41,631 nucleotides of DNA from Clostridia bacterium (GTDB taxonomy: Bacteria; Bacillota; Clostridia; Oscillospirales; CAG-272). A program made the translations under genes and the position numbers. The notes under the pieces were generated by a model. That model worked only from the letters and a program-made list of their open reading frames with translations, had not been told where the DNA came from and made no database searches. The DNA is taken from the NCBI GenBank assembly GCA_017462605.1, contig JAFTQV010000004.1, forward strand, positions 1 through 41,631, written 5' to 3'. Of this stretch, positions 1,636-37,620 are shown piece after piece (position 1 is the first letter of the stretch; the number at the start of each line of letters is the position of its first letter).

Positions 1636-2451
1636 TCAATCGAAACGCTTGAAGAAGCCGTGATTTATATTTTTTCCGTTTACCTTCAACCGATACTCCT
1701 TCGGAGTTCTGCCCGTATTTTGCTTGAACTGCCTATGAAAGCTTCTCTCGCTTCCAAAGCCGCATTCAAAGCAGATCTCAAGACCCGTCTTATCCGTTTC
1801 AAGCAAAAGATATTTCGCTTTATCCGAGCGGATGCTTGCGATAAGCGAGCAAAGATTCATAGAAAAGACCTTCTGTATGCAGCTTGAAAGATAGTTCGGC
1901 GCGTAATTAAGCTCCCTTGCGATATCCGAGAGCGATATTTTTTCCGAAAGATGCTTGTTGATATAATAGACGACCTTTGAAGCAAGATTTATGTCATTCG
2001 AGCCTTCTTTTAGCTTAATTTTACTTAAAAACTCACCCAAAATGAGATAAAGCGCGCCTTTTATATCATAAAGCTCAAGATCGCTCTTTGGAAAAATCTT
2101 TTCGTTGAAGAGCTTTAAGGTGACGTCCTCGGGCTTAAAAACCGCTCCCTCTCCGACCTTACCGTCCGTAGCCTTAAAGAAATCCGGAATGAAGGAAGGC
2201 GAAAAGGTGAAGATCGCAATATCATTCATTTCCGAGGAAATATATTTATGCGGCTGGAACGAGCCAATGAATGCCGCATCGCCAGCGCGCATATGCTCGC
2301 GTCTATCCTCAACTATTATATCAAGCTCGCCGCCGAGCAGAATAACAAGCTCCGCGAACTGATGCAGATGCATCGGGTAATCGTATATTTTATTTAAATG
2401 CTGAAATCTGACGGCTCGCTCATTGCTGAAATTCACGCTTTGAATTCGCAT
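1636..2451 (-). CDS. AraC-family transcriptional regulator (cupin + HTH)
   Basis: This 271-aa protein has the two-domain plan of AraC/XylS regulators. The N-terminal half is a cupin-like sensor with the MHLHQFAELVILLGGEL histidine-containing strand (near residues 27-45). The C-terminal 100 residues carry two helix-turn-helix motifs, with LSDIARELNYAPNYLSSCIQ as the first and the family signature around ICFECGFGSERSFHRQFKQ and GRTPKEYR as the second. The start is set by AAGGAG just upstream and the consensus promoter at 2487-2515. The gene is divergent from the giant secreted phosphoesterase at 2625, with palindromes in the 173-bp gap, so it most likely regulates that gene and itself in response to a small molecule, probably a sugar or sugar phosphate. 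The ligand cannot be read from the sequence. Confidence 0.92.
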   Translation of the reverse strand: MRIQSVNFSNERAVRFQHLNKIYDYPMHLHQFAELVILLGGELDIIVEDRREHMRAGDAAFIGSFQPHKYISSEMNDIAIFTFSPSFIPDFFKATDGKVGEGAVFKPEDVTLKLFNEKIFPKSDLELYDIKGALYLILGEFLSKIKLKEGSNDINLASKVVYYINKHLSEKISLSDIARELNYAPNYLSSCIQKVFSMNLCSLIASIRSDKAKYLLLETDKTGLEICFECGFGSERSFHRQFKQNTGRTPKEYRLKVNGKNINHGFFKRFD

Positions 2452-2624: not shown

Positions 2625-5600
2625 ATGAAAAAACGCAAGATCATTTCCATTTGCATTGCTGCGCTTCTCACGGTCGTTTCGCTTTTCGCATTCATGCCTG
2701 CGACCGAAATAGCTGCGGCAAGCTCGGTTGTGGAGTCTGATTTCGTTTCTTCGGGTCTCGGTCTCGTCAAGGGTGAGGATTACGATTATTCCTTCGCCGT
2801 GGTCGGAGATACTCAGAACCTCAATTACCGCGATGCTAAAGAGGGCTCGAAGAACATGAACAAGCTCTACACGTGGATCAAAAACAACACGGAAGCTCTT
2901 AACATCAAGTACGTTATGGGACTTGGTGATATTACTCAGTCATTCAACGCAAATCAGACTTACTACGATGAAGAGTGGGCAAACGCAAAGGAAGCTCTCG
3001 CTATCCTTGATGATGCTGATATTCCCTACTCTCTTATCAGAGGTAATCACGATATTTCTTCGGGTCTTAACGCGACCTTCGGCGAAGGCTCGGAGTATTA
3101 CAATGATCTTCTCGCGCTTGCGGCTGAAGGCAAAGCTGGCTTCTACCGCGAAGGCAAGATCGAAGAGACGTGGCGCAAGGTTGAAGTCGGAAGCGATAAA
3201 TTCCTTATTATAACTCTCGATTGGTTCCCCACCGAGGGCTCCATGTATTGGGCGGAAAATATTATTAATCAGAACCCCGATCACAGAGTTATCGTAACTA
3301 CTCACACCTTCCTCGCATCCGATGGAACCTTTTACGATGATCCTGACGGAACATTCCCCTATGAGCAGGAAGCAAGCTCCAATACCGACTGGATCGGCGC
3401 TGCGGGCGGCAACGTTTCTCCGAGAACTCTTTGGGAAGAGGTTCTTTCTCAGTATGCAAACGTTGAGATGATCCTCTGCGGTCACGTTGACGTTGACGAT
3501 ATAGAGACCACTCAGCTCCGCGGCGTTAACGGCAATACCGTCACCTGCATGCTTATCGATGCGCAGTCGGTCGATATTCAGAGAGACGATTTCGAGGGCA
3601 ACGTAGGTATGGTAACGATGTTCTACCTCAAGGAAGGCGGAGAGGTTGTAAACGTTGAGCATATTTCAGCCGTTCGCGCTATGGATAACCTTACCGAAGG
3701 CGCAACGCAGAAGAATATCTACCTTAAGGCTAAAAACCAGTTTACCGTAAAGCTCGAATACGAGGACGGCTGGACAAAGACCGATTACGGATATATTCCT
3801 ACCGAAAAGTACAATGCTGCAAACAATTATTTCCATATGTTTGTTGATGACGACGGAATATCCACTAATGATAGCGTTTATCTCGGCAGCTTCGAGAGAT
3901 GGGTAAACGATAGCGGAACGGGCGGCGCTTGCGTTGCGGCAAAGCAATATTATGATCTCGGCGGTATCACTGTTAGAAGAAATAAAACGCTTTTCGTTCT
4001 TATGAATAAATCTTATGACGGACACGGTGATGAAACCTATCAGAATATAGGAAATGCTCCCGGCGGAGTCGTTCTCGATCTGGGCGGAAATACTTATACC
4101 GTCGGAAACAATCCCGTCTGGATCTTATACGCAAGAAACAGCGACCGCGCAGGTGCTTTCAGTATGGTAAACGGTGACGTTAAGCTGTCCGGCTGGAATG
4201 CTTTGGTCTTCACAGGAAGCAACGCAAGCAACGGCGCAGAGATGAATCTTAACTTCCGCGACCTTAACGTATATTACGACGAGGACGGATCGGGAACCTC
4301 AGCTAAGGTAATCGCTTCAACGATGGCAGGCTACACCACCGCTTCAAGTACACTTAATATAACGATTGACGACTGCAGCTTCAATCTTAAAGACAATGCT
4401 CCGGATAAAGCTATCACAGCTTTCAGCCTTGCGGAAGCCAATCTTAATCACCACACCAAGCTGACGGTCAACGGCGGCTCCTTCAAGGGAGCAAGCTCCT
4501 CGGTATTTACTCTCTTCGCGGGCAATGACGGCAGCGACAGTCTCACCTTCGGCAAGGGAAGCGACGGCAACTATACCACGCTTACTCTTGGCGATGAAGC
4601 AACTCTTTCTAATATCTATAAGAACGACGAGGGCTCTTACGTAAAATTCGGCGCAGCGACCAAGGTCAGCGATACCGAATATACATACTCTATTGAGGAT
4701 GCAACGGTAACCGACACCGGATTTGATATATCACAAGTTCCGGATACTAAAGTTTTCGGTAATTATGATCAGTCTGGCGTATACAAAGGAAGTCATCCGA
4801 CTTGGGATGGCGCTTTCTGCACCGACAATGCAGCTAATGACAGAGTACTTGTTCTGACCATAGATTATACTGCAGAAAAGAGAAAGGCAGCCGGAGCAAT
4901 ATCCGGAAGCATTACCATTGATCTAAATGGCAAAACCCTCACCGCCGCAAGCAACGGGTTAATGAATTTTTATTATACGTCAAGCACTACGACGGACTCT
5001 CTTAATATTACTTTTAAAAACGGCACTATAAATTATAGCAACACCAGCACGGGATTGTTCCAGTTTCAGCATGCGGATTTGGGTGAGCAGGATGCGAAGT
5101 CATATAATTTTACCTTTGAGGACGTAACTTTTGAAGGTAATAACAATATGTTTACAATTTGGAGTAGCCCTACCGATCAAAGCGGAACGAGAACAACAGC
5201 AATTTTCAACAACTGCACGTTCAATTATTCCGATCAGATAATTTTCAATGTTGGATCGGGAGATACTAATCATAAAAACTTATTTAATATTACCGTAAAC
5301 GGCGGAAAAATCATAACCGATACCCCTCTAACTCAGACGATGATCTTCTCCGCAAATACCACAGCTGACTATGAAGACACCTTTGCAATCGGCAAGTACA
5401 ACGGCAAATATCCCGAGATCTATCTTACGAGCGGTACGCAGGCAGGCGGCTTCACCCTTGTTAACGGACTTACCGCTAACGCTGTAAAGCTCCCCGATAC
5501 CGTTACTCTTGAAGAAATCGCTTACAACGTATATCCGATCGGCGATGTGCTTACCACAGTCAGCACTCCTTACGGTATAATCCCCGAAGCATTCAAGGAT

Positions 5601-7310
5601 GAGGAGAGCTATCCCTTCGCAGTATTTAAGGACGGCTCATTCGTCAATGCTTATAGCGATTGGGCAACGCTTCTTAATGCATTAAACGCTAAGCTCAATG
5701 CTGATGCTGATACCGCCGACGTGCTTCTCAGACGTAATTTCAGCATTGCGAATCCCTCATTCAGCAATCTTTCTCAGCTCCGCGGAACTGCTACCTTCGA
5801 TCTCGGAACATATGAGCTTAAGGTAGAAACCGGCAATCTCTTTGCCGCAAACAAGAAAACCGCCTATAATACTACAATAAACGTGAAAAACGGTGATATT
5901 CTTCTCGGTGGAAGCTCGATGCTTGTTTATCTCGGAACGTCAAGCAACGGATCCGGTATGAATTTCAACTTTACCTTTGACGAAGTAGATATCTCTTACG
6001 CGTCAGGCGCAACAGGCTCGACTTTCATAAATACTATGCAGCTGTCAGAAGTTGCTCCCTCCACCGCAAATATCACCTTTAAAAACTGCAATATCGACCT
6101 CGTTACAAACGTAACGAAAGCGGCTGTTACATTACTTAATATTGCAAACGATGCGAACAATAATATCGCTAACGTGGTATTTGACGGCGGATCTATCTAT
6201 GCAAATAATAACGTCGTTACCTTCGCGAAGATGAATACTTCGGGCGCAGCTATTGACTCTGTGAAATTCTCAAGCGACTCCGGCAGATACACTAAGATCA
6301 TAGCTCCTATCGGCGGCGAAGCGGTCGTATTCGATTACGTGACCGCTGCGGGATCGGTGGCAACCGCCGCTAAGTGGAATGACAACGAGACTCTCGGAAC
6401 CACTACCTACATAGTTCGTGAGAGCGCGCTTACCGCATTCGCTCCCAAGACGAGCATCACCCTCGGATCTACTCTTATATACAACGTTTACGTTCCCGTT
6501 TGCGCTGAGCTTAAGAGCATTACCCTTATGGGCAGTAAGTTTGACGATCTTACTCTTCTCGATCCTTATATCAAGACTCTTGATGACGGAAAGAGCTATT
6601 ACGAAATACCCGTCAAATTTATCGCCGAGTGCCTTGCAGACGAATTCGCCCTTGAAGCAGAGCTTCAGGTTGGCACGAAGACCTACTCGGGTAAATGGAC
6701 TCTCAGCATTCCGAAGTATGCAAGCACCGTACTCAATAGCGATGCTTCCGAGATCGAAAAGACTCTTATAAAGGACGTCCTCGTTTACATCAGAAGCGCA
6801 TACAACTACTTCGCGCCCGAGAAGGATACGGTCATCTCGAATATAAGCTCAATGCTTGGAGATTACACTCAGGGTGAATTCAAAATGGACGAAGTCAACG
6901 TAAATACTTCCGAGCTTGCAGCAGCAACCTATTCTCTCGGCTCGCTTCAGTCGGTATGGCTCTGGCTTCCCGAAAATGCAGATATCAGCGAATACAGCTT
7001 CAAGGTAGGCGAAAGAGTGCTTGACTTCACGTATGACACTTACGTAAGCGCAGACGAGCTTAACGGTCATATATACGTTAACGTTGAGCTTTACGCATAC
7101 GAGATCCTCAAGACTATCGACGTTTATAAAAACGACGTAAAGTGCGCAGATTACCACATAAGCTGCTATTATAATTATGCAAAGGGTACCGGCGAAACCG
7201 ATTATAACGCTGAGGATAAGGATGCCCTCGTTGCTCTCGTTGAAAGCTTCTATACCTACTGCAATAGCGCTGAGTCTTACAGAAATTCTGTAATTAACTC
7301 TGCAGACTGA
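2625..7310 (+). CDS. Giant secreted metallophosphoesterase with beta-helix repeats and shared C-terminal domain
   Basis: The 1561-aa product begins with a signal peptide (KKRK, then a hydrophobic core to about residue 32). Residues 55-350 are a calcineurin-like metallophosphoesterase with all metal motifs visible: GDTQ at 61, GD at 101-102, GNHD at 140-143, TH at 226-227 and GH at 286-287. The centre (about 455-1230) holds three long blocks rich in Asn, Thr and Gly with repeated strand patterns (such as LNITFKNGTINYS), typical of right-handed beta-helix or polymorphic surface repeats. Residues from about 1276 to the end match the C-terminus of the GH95 protein at 30459. There is no LPXTG motif or C-terminal anchor, so retention must come from another part. 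The start has AAAGGAG 7 nt upstream. Likely role: a phosphodiester- or phosphomonoester-cleaving enzyme at the cell surface; the substrate is unknown. Confidence 0.88.
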   Translation: MKKRKIISICIAALLTVVSLFAFMPATEIAAASSVVESDFVSSGLGLVKGEDYDYSFAVVGDTQNLNYRDAKEGSKNMNKLYTWIKNNTEALNIKYVMGLGDITQSFNANQTYYDEEWANAKEALAILDDADIPYSLIRGNHDISSGLNATFGEGSEYYNDLLALAAEGKAGFYREGKIEETWRKVEVGSDKFLIITLDWFPTEGSMYWAENIINQNPDHRVIVTTHTFLASDGTFYDDPDGTFPYEQEASSNTDWIGAAGGNVSPRTLWEEVLSQYANVEMILCGHVDVDDIETTQLRGVNGNTVTCMLIDAQSVDIQRDDFEGNVGMVTMFYLKEGGEVVNVEHISAVRAMDNLTEGATQKNIYLKAKNQFTVKLEYEDGWTKTDYGYIPTEKYNAANNYFHMFVDDDGISTNDSVYLGSFERWVNDSGTGGACVAAKQYYDLGGITVRRNKTLFVLMNKSYDGHGDETYQNIGNAPGGVVLDLGGNTYTVGNNPVWILYARNSDRAGAFSMVNGDVKLSGWNALVFTGSNASNGAEMNLNFRDLNVYYDEDGSGTSAKVIASTMAGYTTASSTLNITIDDCSFNLKDNAPDKAITAFSLAEANLNHHTKLTVNGGSFKGASSSVFTLFAGNDGSDSLTFGKGSDGNYTTLTLGDEATLSNIYKNDEGSYVKFGAATKVSDTEYTYSIEDATVTDTGFDISQVPDTKVFGNYDQSGVYKGSHPTWDGAFCTDNAANDRVLVLTIDYTAEKRKAAGAISGSITIDLNGKTLTAASNGLMNFYYTSSTTTDSLNITFKNGTINYSNTSTGLFQFQHADLGEQDAKSYNFTFEDVTFEGNNNMFTIWSSPTDQSGTRTTAIFNNCTFNYSDQIIFNVGSGDTNHKNLFNITVNGGKIITDTPLTQTMIFSANTTADYEDTFAIGKYNGKYPEIYLTSGTQAGGFTLVNGLTANAVKLPDTVTLEEIAYNVYPIGDVLTTVSTPYGIIPEAFKDEESYPFAVFKDGSFVNAYSDWATLLNALNAKLNADADTADVLLRRNFSIANPSFSNLSQLRGTATFDLGTYELKVETGNLFAANKKTAYNTTINVKNGDILLGGSSMLVYLGTSSNGSGMNFNFTFDEVDISYASGATGSTFINTMQLSEVAPSTANITFKNCNIDLVTNVTKAAVTLLNIANDANNNIANVVFDGGSIYANNNVVTFAKMNTSGAAIDSVKFSSDSGRYTKIIAPIGGEAVVFDYVTAAGSVATAAKWNDNETLGTTTYIVRESALTAFAPKTSITLGSTLIYNVYVPVCAELKSITLMGSKFDDLTLLDPYIKTLDDGKSYYEIPVKFIAECLADEFALEAELQVGTKTYSGKWTLSIPKYASTVLNSDASEIEKTLIKDVLVYIRSAYNYFAPEKDTVISNISSMLGDYTQGEFKMDEVNVNTSELAAATYSLGSLQSVWLWLPENADISEYSFKVGERVLDFTYDTYVSADELNGHIYVNVELYAYEILKTIDVYKNDVKCADYHISCYYNYAKGTGETDYNAEDKDALVALVESFYTYCNSAESYRNSVINSAD

Positions 7311-7564: not shown

Positions 7565-10438
7565 TTAACGCTTGACTTCTTCCATTATGAAGGCCTCGTA
7601 CATATCGCCTTCCTTAATGTCATTGAACTTATTAAGTCCGACACCGCACTCGTAGCCCTCGGCTACCTCGCGCATATCGTCCTTGAAGCGCTTGAGCGAG
7701 GATATTTCGTCCTCAGCGATGATTATACCGTCACGGACGATACGTATCTTAGCATTTCTCGCGATCTTACCGTCCTTAACGTAGCAGCCTGCGATAGTTC
7801 CAACGTTGGGCACTCTGATGGTCTGGCGGACCTCGGCGTGACCGAGAACGACTTCCTTATAGGTAGGAGCAAGCATACCCTTCATAGCTGCCTCGACCTC
7901 GTCTATGATCTCGTAGATAATTCTGTGTGTTCTGATATCTACGCCGTTTCTCTCAGCGGAGTCGATAGCGTTCTTATCGGGGCGAACGTTGAAGCCGACG
8001 ATAATAGCGTTCGAAGCGGTAGCGAGCATAACGTCCGACTCGGTGATACCGCCGACGGCGCTATGAATAACGCTGACCTTGACCTCTTCGCCCGAAAGCT
8101 TAACAAGAGATGCCTTGACAGCCTCTGCAGAGCCTGCGACGTCTGCCTTAACGATGATATTGAGAGTCTTAACGCCCTCGGAGATCTGGCTGAACAGCTC
8201 GTCAAGATTAACTCTCGCATTGGCATTGAGTATCTCCTGCCTATGCTTCTCACGGCGCTCCTCTGCAAGAGCCTTAGCCATTCTTTCATCCTCAACCGCG
8301 TTCAGCTCGTCGCCCGCCTGGGGAACGTCGTCAAGACCTATGATCTCAACGGGAACGGAAGGACCTGCGGTCTTTATGGTCTTACCCTTATCGTCTACCA
8401 TCGCTCTGACACGGCCTACCGCATCGCCAACGATGACGTAGTCTCCCTGGTGAAGAGTACCGTTCTGAACGAGGACTGTTGCAACAGGGCCTCTTCCTCT
8501 ATCGAGCTTTGACTCGATAACGAGACCTCTTGCTCTCTTGGTGGGGTTAGCTCGAAGCTCCTTGACCTCTGCAACGAGAAGCACGTTATCAAGAAGATCG
8601 GAAATACCCATACCCGTGTGAGCGGAAACGGGGACGCAGATGACGTCTCCACCCCACTGCTCGGGAACAAGCTCATACTGAGTGAGCTGATTAAGAACGT
8701 TATCCGGATTTGCCTCGGGCTTATCCATCTTGTTGATCGCGACGATGATATCTATGCCTGCCGCCTTTGCGTGGCTGATAGCCTCAACGGTCTGAGGCAT
8801 TACTCCGTCATCAGCCGCAACGACGAGGATAGCAATATCGGTGGACTTAGCGCCGCGCATACGCATTGCGGTGAACGCCTCGTGACCGGGGGTATCAAGG
8901 AAGGTTATATCCTTATCCTGCGCCTTGACTCTGTACGCGCCGATAGCCTGGGTAATTCCGCCTGCCTCGCCGCGGGTAACGTTGGTGTGCCTGATAGCGT
9001 CAAGAATAGAGGTCTTACCGTGGTCAACGTGACCCATAACGCAGACGACGGGCGCTCTCTCAACGAGATCCTCTTCTCTATCCTCTGCCTCGGTAAAGAG
9101 CTTCTCTTCCTTGGTGATGACGATCTCACGGGTGACCTTTGCTCCGAATTCGTCTGCAATGATCTCCGCGGTAGCGAAATCGATTGTATCATTTATGGTC
9201 TTCATCTCGCCCATAAACATAAGCTTTTTCATAACCTCAGCCGAGGTCTTCTTAAGTCTTGTAGCAAGCTCGCCAACGGTGATCTCATCGGGAACGGTGA
9301 TCTCAAGCTGCTTCTTTCTTGCCTTTTCAGCCTCAAGGCGCTTGATCTTCTCGGCAGCCGCTCTTTCCTTATCTCTTGCGCTCTTCTGGTTCTGACCCTT
9401 ATTGTCCTGCTTCTTAAGCTTCTGCTTCGAAGCCTTGGTGTCGGTTCCGTTTGCTATTCTGTAATACTGGTCGTTGTATCTCTCATCGTACTTCGAGAGG
9501 TTAACGTCCGAAATTCTCGTATCGACGACACGGGTCTTGGTTACAGACTCGCTTCTGAGGTCGGACGAGATATTTACTCCGCCCTTGACGTCCTTCGCCT
9601 GAGGGTTCGGAGTTATGGTCTTGAACTGCCGCTTCTCATGCTTTTCGCGCTTAGGCTCAGCCTTAGGCGCAGCCTTGGGAGCAGTATCCTGAGCCTTTGC
9701 TCTTGCTTCTGCCTGCTTCTGCTTTTCAAGCGCGCGAAGCTCTGCGGGGCGCTCCTCGATAGGCTTGGGTGTGGGTACGGGCGCAGGCGCTGCCGCAGGC
9801 TTCTGCTGAGGCGCGGATACGGGCGCCGCAGGCTTTCCTTGCATAGGCTTTGCCTGACCCTGATTGCCCTGCTGACCCTGGCGGAAGCCCTGAGCCGCTC
9901 TATTCATATTCTCTCTCTTCTTTGCGAAGGGATCGAAGGTCTCAGCGGAATAAGAGGAACCTCTTCCCGATCTGTCTCTATCGTTATTCCTCTCGGGTCT
10001 TCTCTGAGTGTCCTGAAGGCGGCGATTATCCTGGGCGGGTCTTTGCGCCTCGGGTCTTCTCTCGGGAGCGGGCGCGGTATGTACCTCTGCCTTGACCGAG
10101 GGAGCCTTTTCGGGCGCCTTCTTTGCCACCGTCTCCGCCTTCTTCTGGGGAAGAGGCTCTGCCTTTACCTCGGGAGCCTTCTCCGCCTTAGGCTCAGCCT
10201 TCGGCTTCTCGGGTCTTTTTATAGTTATCTTCGTCTCGCCGGAAAGATAAGAATCAACGTTCTTTATCTGATGCGAGGCGGTCATTTTTTGCATAAAGAG
10301 CTCAAACTCCTCAACGTCTGCAGCTCCGCCGCTCTTTTTCTCTATTTTCAGCTCGGTCGCGAAAAATCCTATAACTTCCTTCGAGCTGATATTAAAATCC
10401 TTGGAGATTTGCGAAATCTTAATTGATCCTCCTGCCAT
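7565..10438 (-). CDS. infB: Translation initiation factor IF-2
   Basis: IF-2 is the GTPase that brings initiator tRNA to the 30S subunit and promotes subunit joining. The protein begins with the IF2_N helical motif ([19 protein letters not shown]), followed by a long Ala/Pro/Lys/Gln-rich linker to about residue 380 and a second IF2_N motif (near 385-440). The GTPase domain (counted from the GTG at 10447) starts with GHVDHGKT at 472-479, then DTPGHEAF and NKMD, and is followed by the C-terminal beta-barrel and IF2 domains ending at about 960. I start at ATG 10438, which has GGTGG 5 nt upstream; a GTG at 10447 is also possible and adds three residues. It is the last gene of the rimP-nusA-ylxR-ylxQ-infB operon. 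rbfA, which often follows, is absent here and a terminator comes directly after. Confidence 0.97.
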
Positions 10439-11070: not shown

Positions 11071-12102
11071 TTAAGACTTTATATCGATCTTGCAGCCTGT
11101 AAGTCTTGCAACGAGCTTTGCATTCTGACCTTCCTTACCGATAGCAAGTGAAAGCTGATCGGGGCTGACGGTTACTCTGCAGGAGCGCTCGCCTTCCATT
11201 TCTACCGAAATTACCTTTGCGGGAGAAAGCGCTTCCTTAACGTACTCTGCGATGTCCTCGCTGTACTTGATTATATCTACCTTTTCATTGCCAAGCTCGG
11301 CGAGAATAGCGTTTATTCTCATACCGTTCTTACCTATACAAGAGCCTACTGCATCAACGTTCTCATCAGTTGAATAGACCGCGATCTTAGAGCGGCTTCC
11401 CGCCTCACGGGATACTCCCTTGACAACTATCGTGCCGTCCTGGATCTCGGGGATCTCAAGCTCGAAGAGCCTCTTTACAAAGTGGGGGTGAACTCTCGAA
11501 AGAGTTACTATCGGGCCTCTTGTCTCACCCGTCTTTACCTCGGAGATGAATACCTTTATTCTATCGCCGACGTCGTGGACCTCACCGGGGATCTGCTCGC
11601 CCTTAAGAAGGGTCGCATAACCCGTACCCGTGTCAAGAATAAGGTTGCCGTTGGTCATATCGACCTTATCAACGATAGCAGTGATGATCTCTTCCTTCTT
11701 ATCCTCGTATTCGCGGGTCTGTCTTTCACGCTCCGCGTCTCTGATCGCCTGAATGATCATCTGCTTTCCTGCCTGAGCGGAAAGACGTCTGAAGGTCTTT
11801 GTCTTAAGCTCGGTCTCAACTATTCCGCCAAGCTTATTTCTGCGGCTGAGCGCCTTTGCCTCCGAAAGAGAGATCTCGGTGTAGCGATCTGTTACCTCGC
11901 CGTCCGGAAGGACTGTGCGCTGCTGGAAGACTCTGAAGTCTGCCTTATTCGGGTTGAGCTGAACTCTGATGATAGTTGAAGATCCGACCTCCTTCTGGCA
12001 AGCCTTAGTAAGAGCCGCCTCGATCCTCTCTATCATATACTCCTTGGGGATACCCTTTTCCTTCTCGATGAGATCAAGGGCGTTGAAGAAATCTGCGTTC
12101 AT
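11071..12102 (-). CDS. nusA: Transcription termination/antitermination factor NusA
   Basis: The 343-aa protein has the full Firmicutes NusA plan: the N-terminal RNA-polymerase-binding domain (to about 130), an S1 domain (about 135-200; GEVHDVGDRIKVFISEVK), and two KH domains (about 205-343) with the CIGKNGMRINAI GXXG loop and IGKEGQNAKLVARLTG in the second. It lacks the C-terminal acidic repeats of proteobacterial NusA, as expected. It modulates pausing, termination and ribosome-coupled transcription. It is second in the operon after rimP, with about 56 nt between them. Confidence 0.97.
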   Translation of the reverse strand: MNADFFNALDLIEKEKGIPKEYMIERIEAALTKACQKEVGSSTIIRVQLNPNKADFRVFQQRTVLPDGEVTDRYTEISLSEAKALSRRNKLGGIVETELKTKTFRRLSAQAGKQMIIQAIRDAERERQTREYEDKKEEIITAIVDKVDMTNGNLILDTGTGYATLLKGEQIPGEVHDVGDRIKVFISEVKTGETRGPIVTLSRVHPHFVKRLFELEIPEIQDGTIVVKGVSREAGSRSKIAVYSTDENVDAVGSCIGKNGMRINAILAELGNEKVDIIKYSEDIAEYVKEALSPAKVISVEMEGERSCRVTVSPDQLSLAIGKEGQNAKLVARLTGCKIDIKS

Positions 12103-12158
12103 TTTTTCCTTTCACCTCGTAATTATCCCTTACGATTCCTTTCTTTATACAAACTTTT

Positions 12159-12620
12159 TTAATTTTCAAAATATACGGTCGTGATCTTCGAGACCTCGGC
12201 TCTCTCAAACTGAAGCTCCGCATCCGCGATCTTAACGGTGATAACACCGCCCTCGTAGGAAAGAAGCTCGCCCGTGTGCGACTTTGCGCCGTACTTCTCG
12301 GCAAAAAGAAAAAGCTTTACTCTTTCGCCGATGGAAAGCGAGATATGCTCGTCAGATCTCAGCTCTCTTTCAGCTCCGGGTGAGGAGACCTCAAGATAGT
12401 AGAAGCCCTCGATCGGGTCGACCTCGTCAAGTATCGGGTCGATCGCTCTATGCACCTTTTCGCAATCGTTGATATCAATGCCGCCGTCCTTATCGATCGT
12501 TATCTCAAGATGATAGTCGGCTCCGATCTTGGTATAAGTCACGTCCCAGATCCTGTATCCAAGCTCGGTGACGGTTGGCAAGATCGCTTCTCTGACGGTT
12601 TCTCTTATCGGTTTTTTCAT
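12159..12620 (-). CDS. rimP: Ribosome maturation factor RimP
   Basis: The 153-aa protein matches RimP, which helps assemble the 30S subunit. It starts with REAILPTVTELGYRIWDVTY, has the conserved acidic segment LEITIDKDGGIDINDCEKVH and the YYLEVSSPGAERELRSDEH signature, and ends with the small SH3-like C-terminal domain. As first gene of the operon it lies behind the promoter at 12697-12725 and a leader hairpin (12647-12672). Confidence 0.95.
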   Translation of the reverse strand: MKKPIRETVREAILPTVTELGYRIWDVTYTKIGADYHLEITIDKDGGIDINDCEKVHRAIDPILDEVDPIEGFYYLEVSSPGAERELRSDEHISLSIGERVKLFLFAEKYGAKSHTGELLSYEGGVITVKIADAELQFERAEVSKITTVYFEN

Positions 12621-12646
12621 TTTTTCGTCGTTCCTTTACAACAAAC

Positions 12647-12672
12647 GAGAGTGGCTCTTTCGAGTCACTCTC
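12647..12672 (-). promoter_or_regulatory. Leader hairpin of the rimP-infB operon
   Basis: An 11-bp near-perfect inverted repeat (GAGAGTGGCTC at 12647-12657, complement at 12662-12672, one mismatch or wobble) lies between the promoter and rimP. It would form in the operon's 5' leader. There is no long T run after it in the operon direction, so it is not a plain terminator; a role in mRNA stability or processing is possible. Confidence 0.45.
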
Positions 12673-12696
12673 CTTTTACTTTATTTAACTATGTAT

Positions 12697-12725
12697 ACTA
12701 TATCATATTTTCTATAAAAATGCAA
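12697..12725 (-). promoter_or_regulatory. Promoter of the rimP-nusA-ylxR-ylxQ-infB operon
   Basis: On the minus strand TTGCAT (12725-12720) and TATAGT (12702-12697) are spaced by 17 bp, about 75 bp upstream of rimP. Confidence 0.65.
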
Positions 12726-12771
12726 TAGCTTTTTCTAAAAAAGTTTTGTTTTTACATTATTATATGATCTA

Positions 12772-12996
12772 TTATATAGCATCGGGGTTCTTTCCGTCCA
12801 AAAGGAGCTTGCAAAGCTTCTTCTTTTTGCGCTTTTTCTCCTTGAACTTTCTCTTCTTGCTGATCTTTACAAACTCGGATATCGCAGTCTCAATATCTTC
12901 CTCAATATCGGCTTTCATCATCTCAAGTCGCAAAATTTCAGCATCACGCTCGTTGAAAACGACGTCGTAAACACTATCCTGAATTTTCTTTGCCAT
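12772..12996 (-). CDS. Small lysine-rich protein, 74 aa
   Basis: The gene starts 18 nt after the stop of the giant coiled-coil gene, with AGGTAGG as ribosome site, so the two are probably one transcript. The first 45 residues form an acidic amphipathic helix (NERDAEILRLEMMKADIEED); the rest is extremely basic (KISKKRKFKEKKRKKKK), ending in LLLDGKNPDAI. No family is recognised. The acid-then-base charge plan echoes that of its neighbour and suggests either a partner binding it or a nucleic-acid or membrane-surface contact. This is inference from charge and position only. Confidence 0.65.
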   Translation of the reverse strand: MAKKIQDSVYDVVFNERDAEILRLEMMKADIEEDIETAISEFVKISKKRKFKEKKRKKKKLCKLLLDGKNPDAI

Positions 12997-13014
12997 AACG
13001 ATTACCTACCTTTA

Positions 13015-18033: not shown

Positions 18034-18113
18034 TTTTGTCCTCCATGCCACAGTGGCGAATTAATTGGCAGCATGATCCGCGTTCCGCGCTGCCGAGCGG
18101 TATATGTGAAGTG

Positions 18114-30458: not shown

Positions 30459-33400
30459 TTATTGCAGTGATGTTCTGTATTCCAGAGCGCTCCTCGAATA
30501 CTTGATGAAGCGCTCCGTTAGAGTGATGAGAGCCTTGTCGCCCTCACTTCTTGCAAAGGCAAGGTAGCTTGAAATATGGTAGCTGCCCTTTTCTGTGCCG
30601 TCAATAAAGTAGGTGACCGTCTCGCACATCTGATAAGCATAGAGGCTTATCTCGATATAAGCGCCGTCTTTATCGGTTTCCACCTTGAAATCTACCTCTC
30701 CTTCACCTACCTTGAAGGTATAGCGTGAAGCATCAGCCCCCTCGGGCAGATAGAATACGAAGGAAGGCGCTGCCGTTAGCCTGAAGGTCGCCGCCGAAAG
30801 ACCCTCGTATGAGCCACCGAGGCTTCCGTCTTCATTTACGGGATTATCTATATCATATCCCTCTCCTATGACGGCGGTTATTTCCTTGACCGCGCCCGTA
30901 TTCTCGGGTGTGAAATAAAGGACTGCCGCTCTTATATAAGAAAGCATATCGCCCGCAAGCTGCTTTTCGGCGCCGCTTCCCGAGGCATCAATGCTTTTTG
31001 CATAATCAAGGATCGAGAAGGAGAATACTCCGCGAGCTTTGGAATCGCCGCGATCAACCGTTGCGATAAGCATGACATCGCGCGCGGCAAGATAGGAATC
31101 AAGCTCTATCTTCATAAGATAGTAGGTCTTACCGTCTCCGAGTGTCACCTCGTTTTCCGAAAGCTCGGGCATATCCGTATATTCCTTTCCGTCAAGCTTA
31201 AAGCTTTCGGTAAGGTTTTTCGGAACGTAAACGTTCATTATAAGGCAGCTATCGAGAGTAATGCTCATCTTAGGCTGATAAGAGGAGATATCGTCCGATG
31301 AAATATCGGATATATAAGCCTCTATTTCGCCTATATAATCGGACATTCTTTCGGTATTCAGAGTCTTATCAATGGCATAGCTCTTGAATTTAAGGTAATT
31401 TGCGTTTGTGAAATAAAGAGCCTTATCTGAGTCGCTCTTTATAGGAAGCTTCTCTATCGCTTCAATAAGCGCACCTCTGTCTATAAGCGAGATAGAGGTC
31501 TCGGTGCAGCTAATCTCTGAGATCACGGCGCCTCTATATTCGCTCTCGCCGTCAAACTTATTCGTATTCTTGAAGGTAATACGAAGCTTGGATGCTATAA
31601 TTCCGTAAAGATCAAAGAGAGTCGCTTCTCCTGTGGAGCTTAGCGCGCGATCGCTGATGATCTTTATCCATTTTCCGCCCGAATATACCTCGATCGAGGT
31701 TTTGTCTGAAGCCGTTGTAAGAGCGCCGTCCACAAGATTTGCGCTTCCGATAAGCTCAGATATCTTAAGAGTGTAAAGACGCTTATCTTCGCCGAGGTCA
31801 AGCTCTGCCGACCAGCTTTGAGAGCCGACGGAAAGCGAAGTGCCCTCATCACCGTCCGTGAGGCTTCCGGCACTACCCGACGTAACCGTTCCGCTGACGG
31901 TAGCAGAGACTCCCGATAACGCGTTCATCTCCTTGCCCTCAAATTTATTTGGAAGATAAGAGAAGCCCGAGCATTCGCTCTCATAGAAGGTGATCCAGCC
32001 CGAGCTGCCGTCATTGGGATCGGCTTCAAATCTTATCCTGCTTCCGATGATGCATCCAAGATCAAAGGTAAGCACAAGATCCGCTCTTCCATCTCCGTTG
32101 TTTACAACGCAGTCCGAGACGTCCGCTTCATCTATTACCGTTATCCATCTTCCGCTCGAATAGACCTCAACCTTCCAGTTCTTTCCCATCTCAGTGGTAT
32201 GACGCTTGAAAAGATAGAACTTAAGCTCGGAAAGCGCGTAATTTCTTTCAAGGTCGATCACAGCGCCCGCTTTTTCATTCTGCCGATTTGAAAATCTTCC
32301 GTCTTTATCGTTATCCGTATTTATGACACCGTCGGTCAGCTTTGAATAAGCGTAGGTGCTATTGAGAGATGAATATTTTTCTTCGAAAACGCGTCCCTCA
32401 AAAAGATTTTCCGAAAGCTGTGCAACCTTATATCCGTCGCACTCACACTCGAAGAAGGTGATAAATCCGCTGTTAAGACATTCTGCGGAAAATCTGATAC
32501 TTGAACCTACTACACCACCAAGATCAAAGACAAGCCAAAGACCGGAGTTGCCGCTCGCCTTGGAAACGAGATATCCGTTCTCGGTATTCGCAAGAGTCTC
32601 GTTTGAGAAGGGTCCGATAACGGAAACTACCTTATCGCCCTGATAGATCTCGATCTTGAAATCCGTACCGATCTGGGCGGTGGTTCTGTTGTAAAGGCAG
32701 AACCTTATCTCATTAAGAACGTAAAGTCCTTCGAGATCCACGCTTCCGTCAAAGCTTCCGTGCTGCTTCGAGGAATATCTGCCCGTGTTGGAATCGTACG
32801 TGCCGTCGTTAAGCTTGCTGTACGTAAAGTTGCTGTCGTAAGACTCGGCCGCTCCCACAATATCTTTGCCGAGAAGAACGTTCTCTCCGTCCGATGAGCC
32901 GATAAGAATGCCCGAAGCATCCATCTCATAATAGGTGACGTAGCCGTTCGCTATACTGCTTGAGCTTAGCCTTATCTTCGAGGCAACGGCGCCGCCCGAA
33001 TTGAATTCGAGCCAGGATCTTCCGTTACCGTCCGATACTATCACTCCGTTATCCTCAATATCGGATGAACCCGCCGTCACCGTGTTGTATGCGCCGACCG
33101 TCACCCACTTGCCGTTTGAAAATGCTTCGATCTTAAGATCCTGACCAACGTGGTCAAGGCTTGTTTTATAGAGGCAGAGTCTTACCTTGTCTATTGAGTA
33201 AAGACCGTCAAGATCTATCACGGCATTCACTTTTCCATTCTCTTTCGAGGAATATCTTCCGCCGCCGTTTTTGTCGAATGAGCCGTCCGTAAGATTATCG
33301 ATAGTATACGATGTGCCGTACTCGCTTGTGCCATTGCCCTTTATTACCTCTTTTCCGAGAAGTATATTTGTCGGGTCGTAATCAAGCGAGGATTCCATTA

Positions 33401-36400
33401 TCTCGGTAATCTCGTAAAGCTCGCTCTCGCTCTTATCATAATATGAGAGCGCCGATACGGCGTATTTGGCACTCTTACTGTATTCCTTTGCCACAAGGAG
33501 AGGAAATGCGCTCTCATATATGAGCTTATACTCGCTATTTTCCTCGTTCTTTTCATAGAGCCTGTATGCTGCACTATTAGCGCAGGAGTCAACAATTATT
33601 TGCAATTCCCCGGATTTTGCTACGTTAGCGGATACGCCGACAACCTTTGCAGACGTATCTATAGGATTATAGTAGCAAAGAGTTCTTTCACTCTCGCATC
33701 CGCTGCCGCTGACGGCGGTAACGGCGAATGTGGTTCTCTCGTTTTCATTATAATAATCGGGGCTGTATACGCACGACGTACCCTCAGTGCTTGCAATAAG
33801 AGTATAGGTAGGCGCATTTCCTGCCGCTGCGTAAACATTGTACCACGCGGCACCCTCAATCTCGGTCCAAGAAAGAGTAAAATCTCCGAAGCCCTCACGG
33901 GTTAAGGTTATTGCAGAAGGAGCGTTCAGCTTCTCTTCTGCCGCAAATGCAGAAATGATATAGGTCTCGCCCGCCTCGGTATCGAAGGTTATAAGATCGT
34001 TTTCCAAGACAGAATAGCTTACCGCTCTTCCCTTTGAGTCATAAAGGTTTGCTCCGGCAGCGGCAGGATAGCGGAAGGACACCTTGCCGCCATTATTTGA
34101 AAGGATATTAGCGGTCTTCAGTACTCCGCCTTCCCATGCCGCACTGACCTCAAAGTTACCTCTGGCAACGAGGCCTGTATATGAGCCGAAAGACCAATCC
34201 GAGGGGATCGCCGCAAGCGGCTCAATATAGCCCTCATGGCTCTGAAGGAGCATTTCGCCGATACCTGCGGTCGCGCCGAAGCTCGCGTCTATCTGGAATA
34301 CCTCCCAAAGCCTTGTGAAAAGATTGGGGAAGGTCTCTTCCTCAAGAAGAGTGCTGAGATTTGCTCCGGCATTCTCTCCGTCCTTTGTCCTTGCATATAG
34401 CGCCATTTTATGCGCGTATACCCAGCCGCCCGTTTTATTCTGACCTCTGCCCTCAAGGGTGACCTTAGCGGCGTCGATCCAAGCGGGCGTGGTTGCGTTT
34501 ATAATATTACCGGGATAAAGTCCGACGAGTTGAGATACGTGGCGGTGATTGGGATCGTCTCCGATCGAGCCGTAGTAGTCCTCCTCGCGGAATTCTTTTA
34601 TCTGACCCGAAAGACCAACGTGTATGGGATCGTATTTATCGACCTGCTCCATGACCGTCTTAAGTATCGAATACTCATCGGTTGAAAGAAGCTCTTCATT
34701 TGAAAGATCTATACCGAGAGCTTTCGCCGCCCTGAGCGCGTTATAATTATTAAGATATGCAAATGTCTGCGCATAGGTAGTTCCCACCGTGTAATACCAG
34801 TCTCCGTTAACGTGGACCTCGGGAGAATCACAGTAGGAAACGAGATAGTGCCCGTCCTCGTCTATCTCAACGCACTTGGTGATAAATCTCGCAGCATCGC
34901 TGAGAACCTTGTAAACCTCTTTAAGCACAGCCTCGTCGCCTGTGAATTCATACCAATCCCAGTAAAGCTGAGTCGTGAAGCCGAGGTTGCCCGCAGAGCG
35001 GTCACTCGATATATTGTAAGCATCGTTGCCTGTTCCTATTACCCAACCGTTGCCGCCGTCAAGCCCCGCCTTATCGGAGTGGTACTTCTCTACCACCTTA
35101 TCCGCATTGAGCTTCGCCTGCTTTCTAAAAGCCTCGTTGAAGTCGGCATACGGTATAAAGGTCTCGGCAAGATTTGAGGTGAATGCCGGCCAATAGTTCA
35201 TCTGAACGTTGATATTATGCCAGTATCCGCTTCTCCATTCGGGACTCTGATAGGTATTCCAGGTTCCTTGAAGGTTTGCAGGCAAGGATCCCTCTCGCGA
35301 GGATGCTATAAGAAGGTATCTTCCGTACTGAAACATAAGAAGCTCAAGATACGTGCTATGATCCTTCGCCTGATATTCTCTTAGAAGAGTATCCGTGGTT
35401 TTATCAAGATCCGCTCTGTCGCAGCCGAGGTCAAGGGTCACCCTTCCGAAAAGCTCGTCGTAGTCCTCTATGTGTCGGGACTTAAGTAAAGCATAAGCAT
35501 CGGCTAAGGAATCGGATGCCGAGATAATCTCTTCAAGCTTCGTCATATACGCGCCGATCTTACCTCTCGTATATTCAAGGTCGGTGCCCATCGTAGGTTT
35601 AGAATTAATATCCGATGTGAATATATCCTCGGAAAGCTCGTAGTCCGTGCCGAGAGTCACTACTATATAAGCCGTTGTCGCGCCTGAAACGGCGATCGCG
35701 CCGTTGTCATCGGTATAGACGGTCCCGTCCTTATCGGTATACTCATTCTTCGCAACGGTAGCCGACACACTTCCGCCCTCGGTGTATACCCTATACATAC
35801 CGCAAAAATCACCCCCAAACGACTCAAGGTTGCCCGTAAGCTCGATATAACCGACGCCATTCTCATCGACCGACGAGGTAACGGTACCCGTTTTTCCGCC
35901 GCGGTCACCGGCAACGTTCATATAGCTCTGCTTAAAGGGAACTGTGGGGCGAAGGATGAACTCAAGCTTGCCCTCGGTGTCCGCATCAAGCTTTATAACG
36001 AGCGCTCTATCCGGATAAGAGGTGAAATGCTCTCTTGTATACTTAACTCCGTCATAGGTATACTCCACTCCCGCGATAGCAGACTTAAGATCAAGATAGC
36101 GCTTATAATTTTCGACCTTGGTATGCCCGAAATCTATATAAGTCTCGGAAAAGTTATTGAGTCCGCCCGTACGGTCAACGTCATTTGAGCCGCCGTATCT
36201 TCCGTACCAGCTTGCAAGAGTTTTATCCGAGAGCTGAATTCGCTCGGTCTCGGTCCTGCCGAAGATATTTGCGCCGAAATATCCGTTTCCTATCGGAAGC
36301 GAATATTGCTCCCATGCAACGTCAGATCCGCTCTGCGACGTTGAAGTAGCCGAATTTTCGGTATTCGTTATCGGAGACGGCTCGTCATACCAAAGCTTAA

Positions 36401-36530
36401 GCGGAATATTGCTTTCCGATATCAAAACGCTGTTTTCATCTCTTTGCTCCGCGCTCACGGATATCACGGGAGATATGCTCGTAAATACAAGAGCCAGCAG
36501 GCATAAAAAGCTTACGATTCTTCTTCTCAT
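30459..36530 (-). CDS. Giant secreted GH95 alpha-L-fucosidase with four discoidin-like domains
   Basis: The 2023-aa product starts with a signal peptide (RRR, then a hydrophobic core to about residue 27). Residues about 40-860 are a GH95 catalytic domain: LWYDEPSPI, QYSLPIGNGYFGANIFG, GSLPANLQGTWN, the NxN pair N439/N441 in HNINVQMNYWPA, E571, and D748 in FQIDASFGATAG. These match the spacing of the catalytic residues of the Bifidobacterium enzyme AfcA (N421, N423, E566, D766), though the family's usual IDGN is IDAS here. An Fn3-like domain (about 870-950) is followed by four F5/8 type C (discoidin-like) domains at about 1054, 1216, 1374 and 1529. Residues from about 1755 are the C-terminal domain shared with the phosphoesterase at 2625. 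Substrate: alpha-1,2-fucosyl or L-galactosyl glycans. Confidence 0.92.
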   Translation of the reverse strand: MRRRIVSFLCLLALVFTSISPVISVSAEQRDENSVLISESNIPLKLWYDEPSPITNTENSATSTSQSGSDVAWEQYSLPIGNGYFGANIFGRTETERIQLSDKTLASWYGRYGGSNDVDRTGGLNNFSETYIDFGHTKVENYKRYLDLKSAIAGVEYTYDGVKYTREHFTSYPDRALVIKLDADTEGKLEFILRPTVPFKQSYMNVAGDRGGKTGTVTSSVDENGVGYIELTGNLESFGGDFCGMYRVYTEGGSVSATVAKNEYTDKDGTVYTDDNGAIAVSGATTAYIVVTLGTDYELSEDIFTSDINSKPTMGTDLEYTRGKIGAYMTKLEEIISASDSLADAYALLKSRHIEDYDELFGRVTLDLGCDRADLDKTTDTLLREYQAKDHSTYLELLMFQYGRYLLIASSREGSLPANLQGTWNTYQSPEWRSGYWHNINVQMNYWPAFTSNLAETFIPYADFNEAFRKQAKLNADKVVEKYHSDKAGLDGGNGWVIGTGNDAYNISSDRSAGNLGFTTQLYWDWYEFTGDEAVLKEVYKVLSDAARFITKCVEIDEDGHYLVSYCDSPEVHVNGDWYYTVGTTYAQTFAYLNNYNALRAAKALGIDLSNEELLSTDEYSILKTVMEQVDKYDPIHVGLSGQIKEFREEDYYGSIGDDPNHRHVSQLVGLYPGNIINATTPAWIDAAKVTLEGRGQNKTGGWVYAHKMALYARTKDGENAGANLSTLLEEETFPNLFTRLWEVFQIDASFGATAGIGEMLLQSHEGYIEPLAAIPSDWSFGSYTGLVARGNFEVSAAWEGGVLKTANILSNNGGKVSFRYPAAAGANLYDSKGRAVSYSVLENDLITFDTEAGETYIISAFAAEEKLNAPSAITLTREGFGDFTLSWTEIEGAAWYNVYAAAGNAPTYTLIASTEGTSCVYSPDYYNENERTTFAVTAVSGSGCESERTLCYYNPIDTSAKVVGVSANVAKSGELQIIVDSCANSAAYRLYEKNEENSEYKLIYESAFPLLVAKEYSKSAKYAVSALSYYDKSESELYEITEIMESSLDYDPTNILLGKEVIKGNGTSEYGTSYTIDNLTDGSFDKNGGGRYSSKENGKVNAVIDLDGLYSIDKVRLCLYKTSLDHVGQDLKIEAFSNGKWVTVGAYNTVTAGSSDIEDNGVIVSDGNGRSWLEFNSGGAVASKIRLSSSSIANGYVTYYEMDASGILIGSSDGENVLLGKDIVGAAESYDSNFTYSKLNDGTYDSNTGRYSSKQHGSFDGSVDLEGLYVLNEIRFCLYNRTTAQIGTDFKIEIYQGDKVVSVIGPFSNETLANTENGYLVSKASGNSGLWLVFDLGGVVGSSIRFSAECLNSGFITFFECECDGYKVAQLSENLFEGRVFEEKYSSLNSTYAYSKLTDGVINTDNDKDGRFSNRQNEKAGAVIDLERNYALSELKFYLFKRHTTEMGKNWKVEVYSSGRWITVIDEADVSDCVVNNGDGRADLVLTFDLGCIIGSRIRFEADPNDGSSGWITFYESECSGFSYLPNKFEGKEMNALSGVSATVSGTVTSGSAGSLTDGDEGTSLSVGSQSWSAELDLGEDKRLYTLKISELIGSANLVDGALTTASDKTSIEVYSGGKWIKIISDRALSSTGEATLFDLYGIIASKLRITFKNTNKFDGESEYRGAVISEISCTETSISLIDRGALIEAIEKLPIKSDSDKALYFTNANYLKFKSYAIDKTLNTERMSDYIGEIEAYISDISSDDISSYQPKMSITLDSCLIMNVYVPKNLTESFKLDGKEYTDMPELSENEVTLGDGKTYYLMKIELDSYLAARDVMLIATVDRGDSKARGVFSFSILDYAKSIDASGSGAEKQLAGDMLSYIRAAVLYFTPENTGAVKEITAVIGEGYDIDNPVNEDGSLGGSYEGLSAATFRLTAAPSFVFYLPEGADASRYTFKVGEGEVDFKVETDKDGAYIEISLYAYQMCETVTYFIDGTEKGSYHISSYLAFARSEGDKALITLTERFIKYSRSALEYRTSLQ

Positions 36531-36672: not shown

Positions 36673-37620
36673 ATGATTAAAGAAAAGCTTCCAAACGATA
36701 AGATATACAGATACAAGGTGGACGGCAGATTTACCGATGACCTTCCGGGCGTGACAGCCTACGTTATGCGCGATTACTCGATAGGTATGCATATCCAGGA
36801 TTTCTTTGAGATCAATATAGTGACGAGAGGATACGGAATGCATTATATAGGAGAGGGCTGCGCGGCGGCAAGCGTTGGCGACGTTTTCATTATACCGCCC
36901 CACGTCAGGCACGGATATACGGGTGGCAAGGGCTTTGACGTTTCGCACTTTATCGTGAGCGACGGATTTATCAAGCATAATTTTGATATATTGCAAAGGA
37001 TCCCGCATTTCTTCACTCTATTCAACGCCGAGCCGCTCATGCGAGCGCAAAGCGAAGACGGAGCCTTGCATCTGAAACTCGAAAATGAGCGTTTTTCTAA
37101 GCTTTTGCCTTATCTATACGAAATGTACGCTAACCATAAGGACATGCGGCTTTACTATTGGGATAAAATAAGCGAATGCAGGGAGATAAGCACCTTAGCC
37201 ATAGCAAAAAATATCGGGCTTGCCCTTTACGTTATAACTCAGCTCTGCGAGGCATACGGCGAATATACCAACAAAGTAAGTAAAGCTACCGAGAGCCGCG
37301 ACGCCAATTTTATGAATACGATATCTCTTATCCATGAAAAATACAGTGAAAAAATATCGCTTGCCGAGCTTGCGAAAACCGCTCGCCTCTCCCGAAGCGC
37401 CTTTATCAAGCGATTCAAGACGATCACCGGCATGACCCCCTCGGATTACATAATAAAGCAAAGGCTCGATGCAGCGGAAAATATGCTCATCAATACCGGT
37501 TATTCGGTCGCCGATATAGCCTTCAAATCAGGCTTTTACGATTCCTCTCATTTCTCCCGATCATTCAGTAAAGCTCGCGGAATCTCTCCCTCGGAATACA
37601 GGGAGAAGATAAAAAAATGA
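36673..37620 (+). CDS. AraC-family transcriptional regulator
   Basis: The 315-aa protein has the cupin-like N-terminal sensor (MHIQDFFEINIVTRGYGMHY, PPHVRHGYTGG) and the C-terminal AraC domain with two helix-turn-helix motifs (LAELAKTARLSRSAFIKRFK and VADIAFKSGFYDSSHFSRSF, then GISPSEYREK). It is divergent from the GH95 gene with overlapping promoters and palindromic sites, so it probably controls that gene and itself in response to a sugar freed by the enzyme. The ATG at 36673 has GAGAGATAAC upstream, a moderate ribosome site. It is not a close paralogue of the regulator at 1636 as far as I can see. Confidence 0.92.
   Translation: MIKEKLPNDKIYRYKVDGRFTDDLPGVTAYVMRDYSIGMHIQDFFEINIVTRGYGMHYIGEGCAAASVGDVFIIPPHVRHGYTGGKGFDVSHFIVSDGFIKHNFDILQRIPHFFTLFNAEPLMRAQSEDGALHLKLENERFSKLLPYLYEMYANHKDMRLYYWDKISECREISTLAIAKNIGLALYVITQLCEAYGEYTNKVSKATESRDANFMNTISLIHEKYSEKISLAELAKTARLSRSAFIKRFKTITGMTPSDYIIKQRLDAAENMLINTGYSVADIAFKSGFYDSSHFSRSFSKARGISPSEYREKIKK

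Follow-up and report, generated by a model that had tools for sequence, protein, structure and literature searches.

A duplicated C-terminal domain shared by many large secreted proteins of a Clostridia bacterium: a candidate surface docking module

Two giant proteins encoded in the window (the whole 41,631-nucleotide stretch of Clostridia DNA that was analysed) end in the same domain, and the family to which this tail belongs is much larger than the earlier two-protein observation, with more than 30 matches in a single genome that is 60% complete. We propose, with a probability of about one half, that the tail is a position-tolerant, non-covalent docking module by which secreted enzymes would be held to a shared partner on the surface of the producing cell. 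We infer the binding itself, the surface location of the partner, the use of one partner by all tails of a genome, and the action of the neighbouring regulators on the adjoining genes. The relevant features of the window are as follows.

2625..7310, + strand: P0001, giant secreted Metallophos protein (calcineurin-like phosphoesterase) of 1561 aa with a signal-peptide-like start (Pfam)
6423..7304, + strand: tail domain of the Metallophos protein, 294 aa (BLASTP and family profile)
6423..6812, + strand: half 1 of the phosphoesterase tail, through the motif corresponding to LSYIRAAYxYF (half-versus-half hhalign)
6813..7304, + strand: linker and half 2 of the phosphoesterase tail, with the motif corresponding to LVERFxxYCxSAxAYR (half-versus-half hhalign)
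30459..36530, − strand: P0002, giant secreted GH95 protein with F5/8 type C domains, 2023 aa (Pfam)
30462..31295, − strand: tail domain of the GH95 protein, 278 aa (BLASTP and family profile)
~30912-31295, − strand: half 1 of the GH95-protein tail, hand-counted by the same motif
~30462-30911, − strand: half 2 of the GH95-protein tail, hand-counted likewise
1636..2451, − strand: divergent AraC-family regulator adjoining the phosphoesterase gene, with a cupin/AraC ligand-binding domain (Pfam HTH_18, HTH_AraC, Cupin_2, AraC_binding)
36673..37620, + strand: divergent AraC-family regulator adjoining the GH95 gene (Pfam HTH_18, HTH_AraC, AraC_binding)

BLASTP of P0001 against P0002 gives a single significant alignment, located at the C-termini (residues 1272-1556 of 1561 and 1751-2022 of 2023, respectively), with 34% identity and 53% positives over 288 aa (141 bits, E 3e-37); all remaining segments have E ≥0.25. 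The Smith-Waterman score of the two tails is 376, compared to a maximum of 72 in 500 shuffles, and chance similarity is excluded by these two results. The original prediction of a C-terminal domain common to the phosphoesterase and the GH95 protein is therefore borne out, and the short motifs that it listed are present in both tail sequences and in their alignment. The stretch it gave for the phosphoesterase tail is indeed homologous, but the start at 6449 should be moved to 6423; the end is at 7304. Inspection of both proteins also bears out that they have neither an LPXTG motif nor a C-terminal segment of strong hydrophobicity. The domain has an acidic pI of about 4.1-4.7 and contains 0-3 tryptophans per copy in 24 copies from the window's own genome. 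The window also encodes a charged, repeat-rich protein of 1678 aa (13015-18051, − strand); it has a hydrophobic segment close to the C-terminus, and Pfam gives no match for it at E 0.001.

Profiles of the two halves of the tail align to each other with an hhalign probability of 98.3% (E 1.8e-14; score 80, compared to a best score of 12 in 40 column shuffles). By this comparison the tail is a tandem duplication of a unit of ~140 aa, and a conserved Tyr/Ala-rich motif, helix-like by its sequence, closes each unit. The core motif LSYIRAAYxYF corresponds to LNYGAAAQxYF in the class-level form. In three ORFs of the own genome, half 1 occurs alone, shortly after the signal peptide: L201:3527-6976 (contig C15), presumably a GH43-type-like enzyme; L202:3012-5915 (C42), presumably a 5'-nucleotidase-type-like enzyme; and L206:1551-2462 (C22), an ORF of 303 aa. 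Half 1 can thus occur as a separate unit outside the C-terminal position. One more weak place, C54, yielded no match on a renewed search of its stretch. A difference in conservation between the two halves, seen in the metagenome-assembled genome (MAG) SIG656, is absent in other genomes.

In the own genome (G000, 1.71 Mb), tblastn with one tail yields 25 matches, and profile searches yield 32 (A1), at least 35 (A2) and 34 (the class-level profile A3); the sets have matches in common, and some of the matches are fragmentary because they lie at contig ends. Iterating a profile over the retrieved stretches gave 24 own-genome carriers. In all, 118 carriers were compiled, or 117 after one cut copy from overlapping stretches had been dropped, 28 of them from the own genome. 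Among the 106 carriers with a visible stop, the domain ends within 5 aa of the stop in 82 and within 60 aa in 10 more, making 92 C-terminal and 14 internal copies; 11 further carriers are cut. Downstream of the internal copies there are, among others, SGNH/GDSL- or DUF4886-like esterases, an LRR-like region and F5/8C domains, in part by sequence reading. A simple hydropathy rule finds a signal-peptide-like start in 99 of the 102 carriers with an intact start, the exceptions being L026 (a frame without a start), L150 (no clear signal) and L134 (a fragment of 148 aa). The expectation that the domain would recur at the C-terminus of large secreted proteins has therefore held. L026:3652-9537 is a Metallophos tail gene without a start in frame, and a short ORF on the same strand (9538-10038) lies between it and an AraC-type gene; this tail gene may be split in two.

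No carrier with a stop passes the hydropathy threshold in its last 60 aa, which rules out a C-terminal membrane anchor. The pattern LPxT[GAS] is absent from the last 80 aa of all 117 compiled carriers; three of them have LPxTG at a site remote from the end (positions 367, 1192 and 1181). The sortase family PF04203 has no match in any of 69 genomes of the genus, 22 of which are of good quality, although the same search finds matches in 3 of 14 control genomes. Covalent anchoring by sortase was rejected on these two counts. It had been suggested that the tail retains or sorts the proteins on the cell surface. Surface retention would still be the best fit, while a strictly terminal, processed sorting signal is disfavoured by the internal copies (14/106) and by the three ORFs in which half 1 lies by itself close to the signal peptide.

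Searches of Pfam, NCBIfam and PDB sequences name no family for the tail, as the original prediction had it, and neither database of families matches the tail of P0001 or P0002. When 23 core and 22 class-level domains were compared to Pfam (the latter also to NCBIfam), no family matched more than one domain. The best single-member matches, to a forkhead model (E 0.0068), the phage XkdX model (E 0.00021) and a plant cystatin-related model (E 0.0048), are taken as chance hits. Consensus sequences reach at best E 0.011 in Pfam, and PDB sequences give a best E of 0.37 with the A1 profile, 0.068 with the consensus and no hit with A3. Literature searches by title or start of abstract found no paper on the domain. 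The tail is thus neither covered by a named family nor restricted to two proteins.

The families of established surface modules were looked for specifically. Our Pfam scan of whole carriers was confined to 19 of the 28 from the own genome and 18 of the 23 at class level. SLH (PF00395) matches neither the 23 plus 22 tails of the A1 and A3 sets nor the scanned carriers; dockerin (PF00404) is likewise absent from scanned tails and scanned carriers, and WxL (PF13731) from scanned tails and the consensus. Membership in SLH, CWB2 or dockerin was rejected, as no scanned tail has such a Pfam match, and none of the Pfam wall-attachment families listed in the available part of a review of wall-attachment domains (PMC5817068) matched the tail. 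At the level of genomes, CWB2 (PF04122) has no match in the 69 genus genomes, for which the counts of SLH, cohesin and dockerin are 33, 9 and 14. The SLH matches of the genus mostly belong to one separate protein of about 430 aa. The own genome has a single SLH match over the cut-off, near the C-terminus of L172:4792-6060 (C94), which has a signal-like start.

Across the genus, the A2 profile matches 40 of 69 genomes, the own genome included, and 10 of the 22 good-quality ones; 29 have no match, and the largest number of matches is at least 36, in G434. With the narrower A1 profile, 10 of 40 relatives match and none of the 19 good-quality ones. In the class, 20 of 391 genomes match with A2 and 20 of 391 with A3, the own genome being one of each 20. 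A phylum draw of 398 genomes contains two that match: the own genome and, from its order, G130. Copy numbers per genome in these scans are lower bounds. Named Clostridia MAGs with the domain include RGIG2037 (goat colon), RGIG9142 (water deer rectum), RGIG4071 (roe deer cecum), RGIG5312 (sheep colon) and SIG656 (Oscillospiraceae, source not stated), a list that comes from a single peptide pattern and is biased to the core form. By inference, L156/L157 are assigned to RGIG2037, L160 to RGIG4071 and L150/L151 to RGIG5312. The window tail has no match among the plasmid and phage records searched.

The proteins that carry the module are diverse. Among the 19 scanned carriers of the own genome, Pfam finds Metallophos in five, GH95 in two, alpha-L-rhamnosidase (which we take to be GH78) in one, SASA esterase in two, Big_5 in three and DUF4886 in one; two have a GDSL-like match below the cut-off, one of them together with Peptidase_S9, and three have no family. 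The 18 scanned class-level carriers contain LRR_5, F5/8C, Laminin_G_3 and beta-helix repeats, one cohesin (L137) and others, several being without a family. Within a single genome, then, the same module is attached to activities as unrelated as Metallophos, GH95, alpha-L-rhamnosidase, SASA esterase and DUF4886, among others, which is easier to reconcile with a shared destination than with a shared substrate. A gene run on contig C29 also speaks for docking: its GH95 paralogue (L027|11607-15170) has, by inspection, no signal-like start and also no tail, whereas the other three genes of the run are all tailed, two with a signal-like start and the third truncated where the contig ends. Against docking stand the 29 genus genomes without a match, which make the module no universal anchor, and its acidity, which disfavours an acidic wall polymer as the ligand. 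The partner is hypothetical, as only an AraC-type gene recurs widely beside the tail genes.

That AraC-type gene, the sole widely recurrent neighbour, forms a cluster of 40 genes at 36 loci; its identity is confirmed by Pfam for the two window genes. A receptor encoded beside the tail genes was rejected because nothing else recurs widely. By a strict automatic test, a divergent AraC-type gene lies directly upstream of 28 of 93 carriers, compared to 9 of 192 other genes of at least 200 aa. Among other genes of at least 800 aa the count is 2 of 17, both large and cut at the end of the stretch. We also counted pairings with second genes behind a domain gene set apart (nine in the four core genomes), and excluding carriers without an intact start or with less than 800 nt upstream and no AraC seen. 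The divergent AraC-type gene is then present in 14 of 20 cases in G000, 10 of 14 in RGIG2037, 3 of 5 in SIG656 and 6 of 10 in RGIG9142, or 33 of 49 together. Elsewhere it is absent or rare (0/4 in RGIG4071, 0/2 in RGIG5312, 0/16 at class level, 1/10 in other genus members), and the pairing is therefore a trait of the core clade, not of the domain as such. The tail gene L033:66-1100 has a divergent LysR-family regulator instead.

Tails and enzyme parts differ in where their closest relatives are found. We compared 54 of the 58 core tails, core being defined as at least 28% identity to one SIG656 tail. The best relative of the enzyme part is in another genome for 42 of the 54 carriers, and that of the tail is in the same genome for 38. 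Discordant carriers with the enzyme part pointing to another genome and the tail to the same one number 30, compared to 4 of the opposite kind (sign test p 6e-6, with rows that are not independent). By these counts, tails evolve in concert within a genome, whereas enzyme parts follow ancestry across genomes. For 17 clear counterparts (enzyme parts at least 45% identical over at least 1000 aa), mean identity is 53.8% in the enzyme part and 38.7% in the tail. The tail of an unrelated protein in the carrier's own genome is closer than the counterpart's tail in 15 of the 17. Some unrelated tail from the counterpart's genome is also closer in 11 of the 17, so part of the signal is plain shuffling; in a size-matched comparison the own genome beats the other in 13 of 17. 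A first comparison, in which an own-genome unrelated tail was closer in 51 of 62 cases, was set aside as it pitted the best of many against one. As an example, L051 of SIG656 and L064 of RGIG2037 share 66-68% identity in the enzyme part and 49% in the tail; between the L051 tail and the tail of an unrelated protein from SIG656, identity is 84%.

Label permutations agree with a genome-wise grouping of tails. In a tail tree of 75 rows, the genome label changes 19 times, compared to a mean of 43.1 and a minimum of 37 in 200 shuffles; for three genomes alone there are 13 changes, compared to 25.3 and a minimum of 20. The 75 rows include both copies of one duplicated carrier, which leaves the three-genome count unaffected. 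Tail identity within genomes exceeds that between genomes by 4.7 points, with a maximum of 3.0 in 1000 label shuffles. Homogenisation is strongest in SIG656 (70% within). G000 has no average excess (35.6% within, 36.6% between) and only some swapped pairs. At fourfold-degenerate sites, some within-genome tail pairs are 0.66-0.87 identical, compared to 0.36-0.41 for three orthologous enzyme-part pairs, and similarity rises at the domain start in all four within-genome pairs profiled; taken together, this points to recombination. Other SIG656 tail pairs, with a fourfold identity of 0.46-0.57 and a protein identity of 69-79%, point to shared constraint. Neutral gene conversion or recombination between repeats can produce the within-genome pattern.

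The docking reading draws on several features in combination: fusion to unrelated activities, tolerance of position, signal-like starts, homogenisation of tails within genomes, and a genus with no match to sortase or CWB2. The mechanism we propose would work as follows. The duplicated extracellular module would hold many kinds of enzyme to one shared surface partner, either a wall polymer or a surface protein, and would replace the sortase route, for which the genus yields no gene match. In the core clade, the divergent AraC-type regulator would usually switch on its enzyme or a short run of enzymes, and with such individual regulators the cell could choose which enzyme fills the shared surface sites. 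A more specific version is tentative: homogenisation within a genome may turn the tails of an expanded set of giant enzymes into a species-specific address recognised by a single shared receptor, forming an exchangeable plug for sortase-free display that is acquired by recombination at the domain boundary while each gene keeps its own AraC-type switch. We hold both the docking and the exchangeable-plug reading slightly less probable because G000 has no average homogenisation.

Genome-specific homogenisation is also what a species-specific protein receptor would favour if the tails docked to a scaffold or to each other and built a cellulosome-like multi-enzyme complex, cell-bound or not. The class-level tail protein L137 carries a cohesin domain, and G430, the sole genus genome rich in dockerins (17) and cohesins (9), lacks any tail match, possibly a single case of an alternative display system. 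Such a complex is nevertheless unlikely: no recurrent scaffold candidate adjoins the genes, the own genome (60% complete) has no cohesin or dockerin match, and G430 stands alone.

Several carriers act on glycans (GH95, alpha-L-rhamnosidase, SASA), AraC-type control would fit nutrient use, and the consensus has a weak, sub-threshold match to CBM27 (E 0.14), all of which would suit a carbohydrate-binding module aimed at dietary or host glycans rather than at the producing cell. We regard this as quite improbable, given that the module is also found on phosphoesterases, LRR proteins and a cohesin protein, that some carriers have separate lectin-like modules (F5/8C, Laminin_G_3), that tryptophans are few, and that a glycan ligand alone does not predict homogenisation within genomes. 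Least probable of all is a structural cap that serves folding or stability of long secreted proteins and has no dedicated partner, for although the tail is usually the last domain of very large proteins and in several follows repeat-rich regions that read as beta-helix-like, it follows an F5/8C region in the GH95 protein, is elsewhere internal or reduced to half 1 near the signal peptide, and tracks the genome more than the enzyme with which a cap should coevolve.

If the docking reading is correct, it would account for the retention of large polymer-degrading enzymes at the surface of bacteria in which no sortase is detectable. It would also make enzyme display in ruminant gut communities accessible to study through a testable genome-specific address, and would offer an annotation route for many unnamed C-termini and possibly a surface-display tag.

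Known display systems resemble the tail in different respects; CWB2, WxL, SLH and dockerin are the nearest working analogues, and by sequence criteria the tail belongs to none of them. The sortase/LPXTG system displays many unrelated secreted proteins; the compiled carriers differ in having no LPxT[GAS] near the end, and their genus in having no sortase match (0/69). The dockerin of the cellulosome is a duplicated docking module, C-terminal on many different enzymes, but the repeat unit of the tail is far larger and the scanned carriers have no dockerin match. The SLH domain is position-tolerant. Scanned tails and carriers differ from it in lacking any SLH match, yet SLH (PF00395) is, like the proposed module, a repeated unit that binds the wall non-covalently, as described in PMC5817068. 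WxL, according to the same source, is a C-terminal non-covalent surface domain of secreted proteins; the tail has no PF13731 match and is Trp-poor (0-3 per domain). From CWB2 the tail differs in having no PF04122 match and two repeats of ~140 aa rather than three of ~90. As in the CWB2 system of Clostridioides difficile, however, paralogous secreted proteins with differing functional parts share one repeated module; in the example reviewed there, 29 proteins with three CWB2 copies each are held non-covalently by a wall polysaccharide (PMC5817068).
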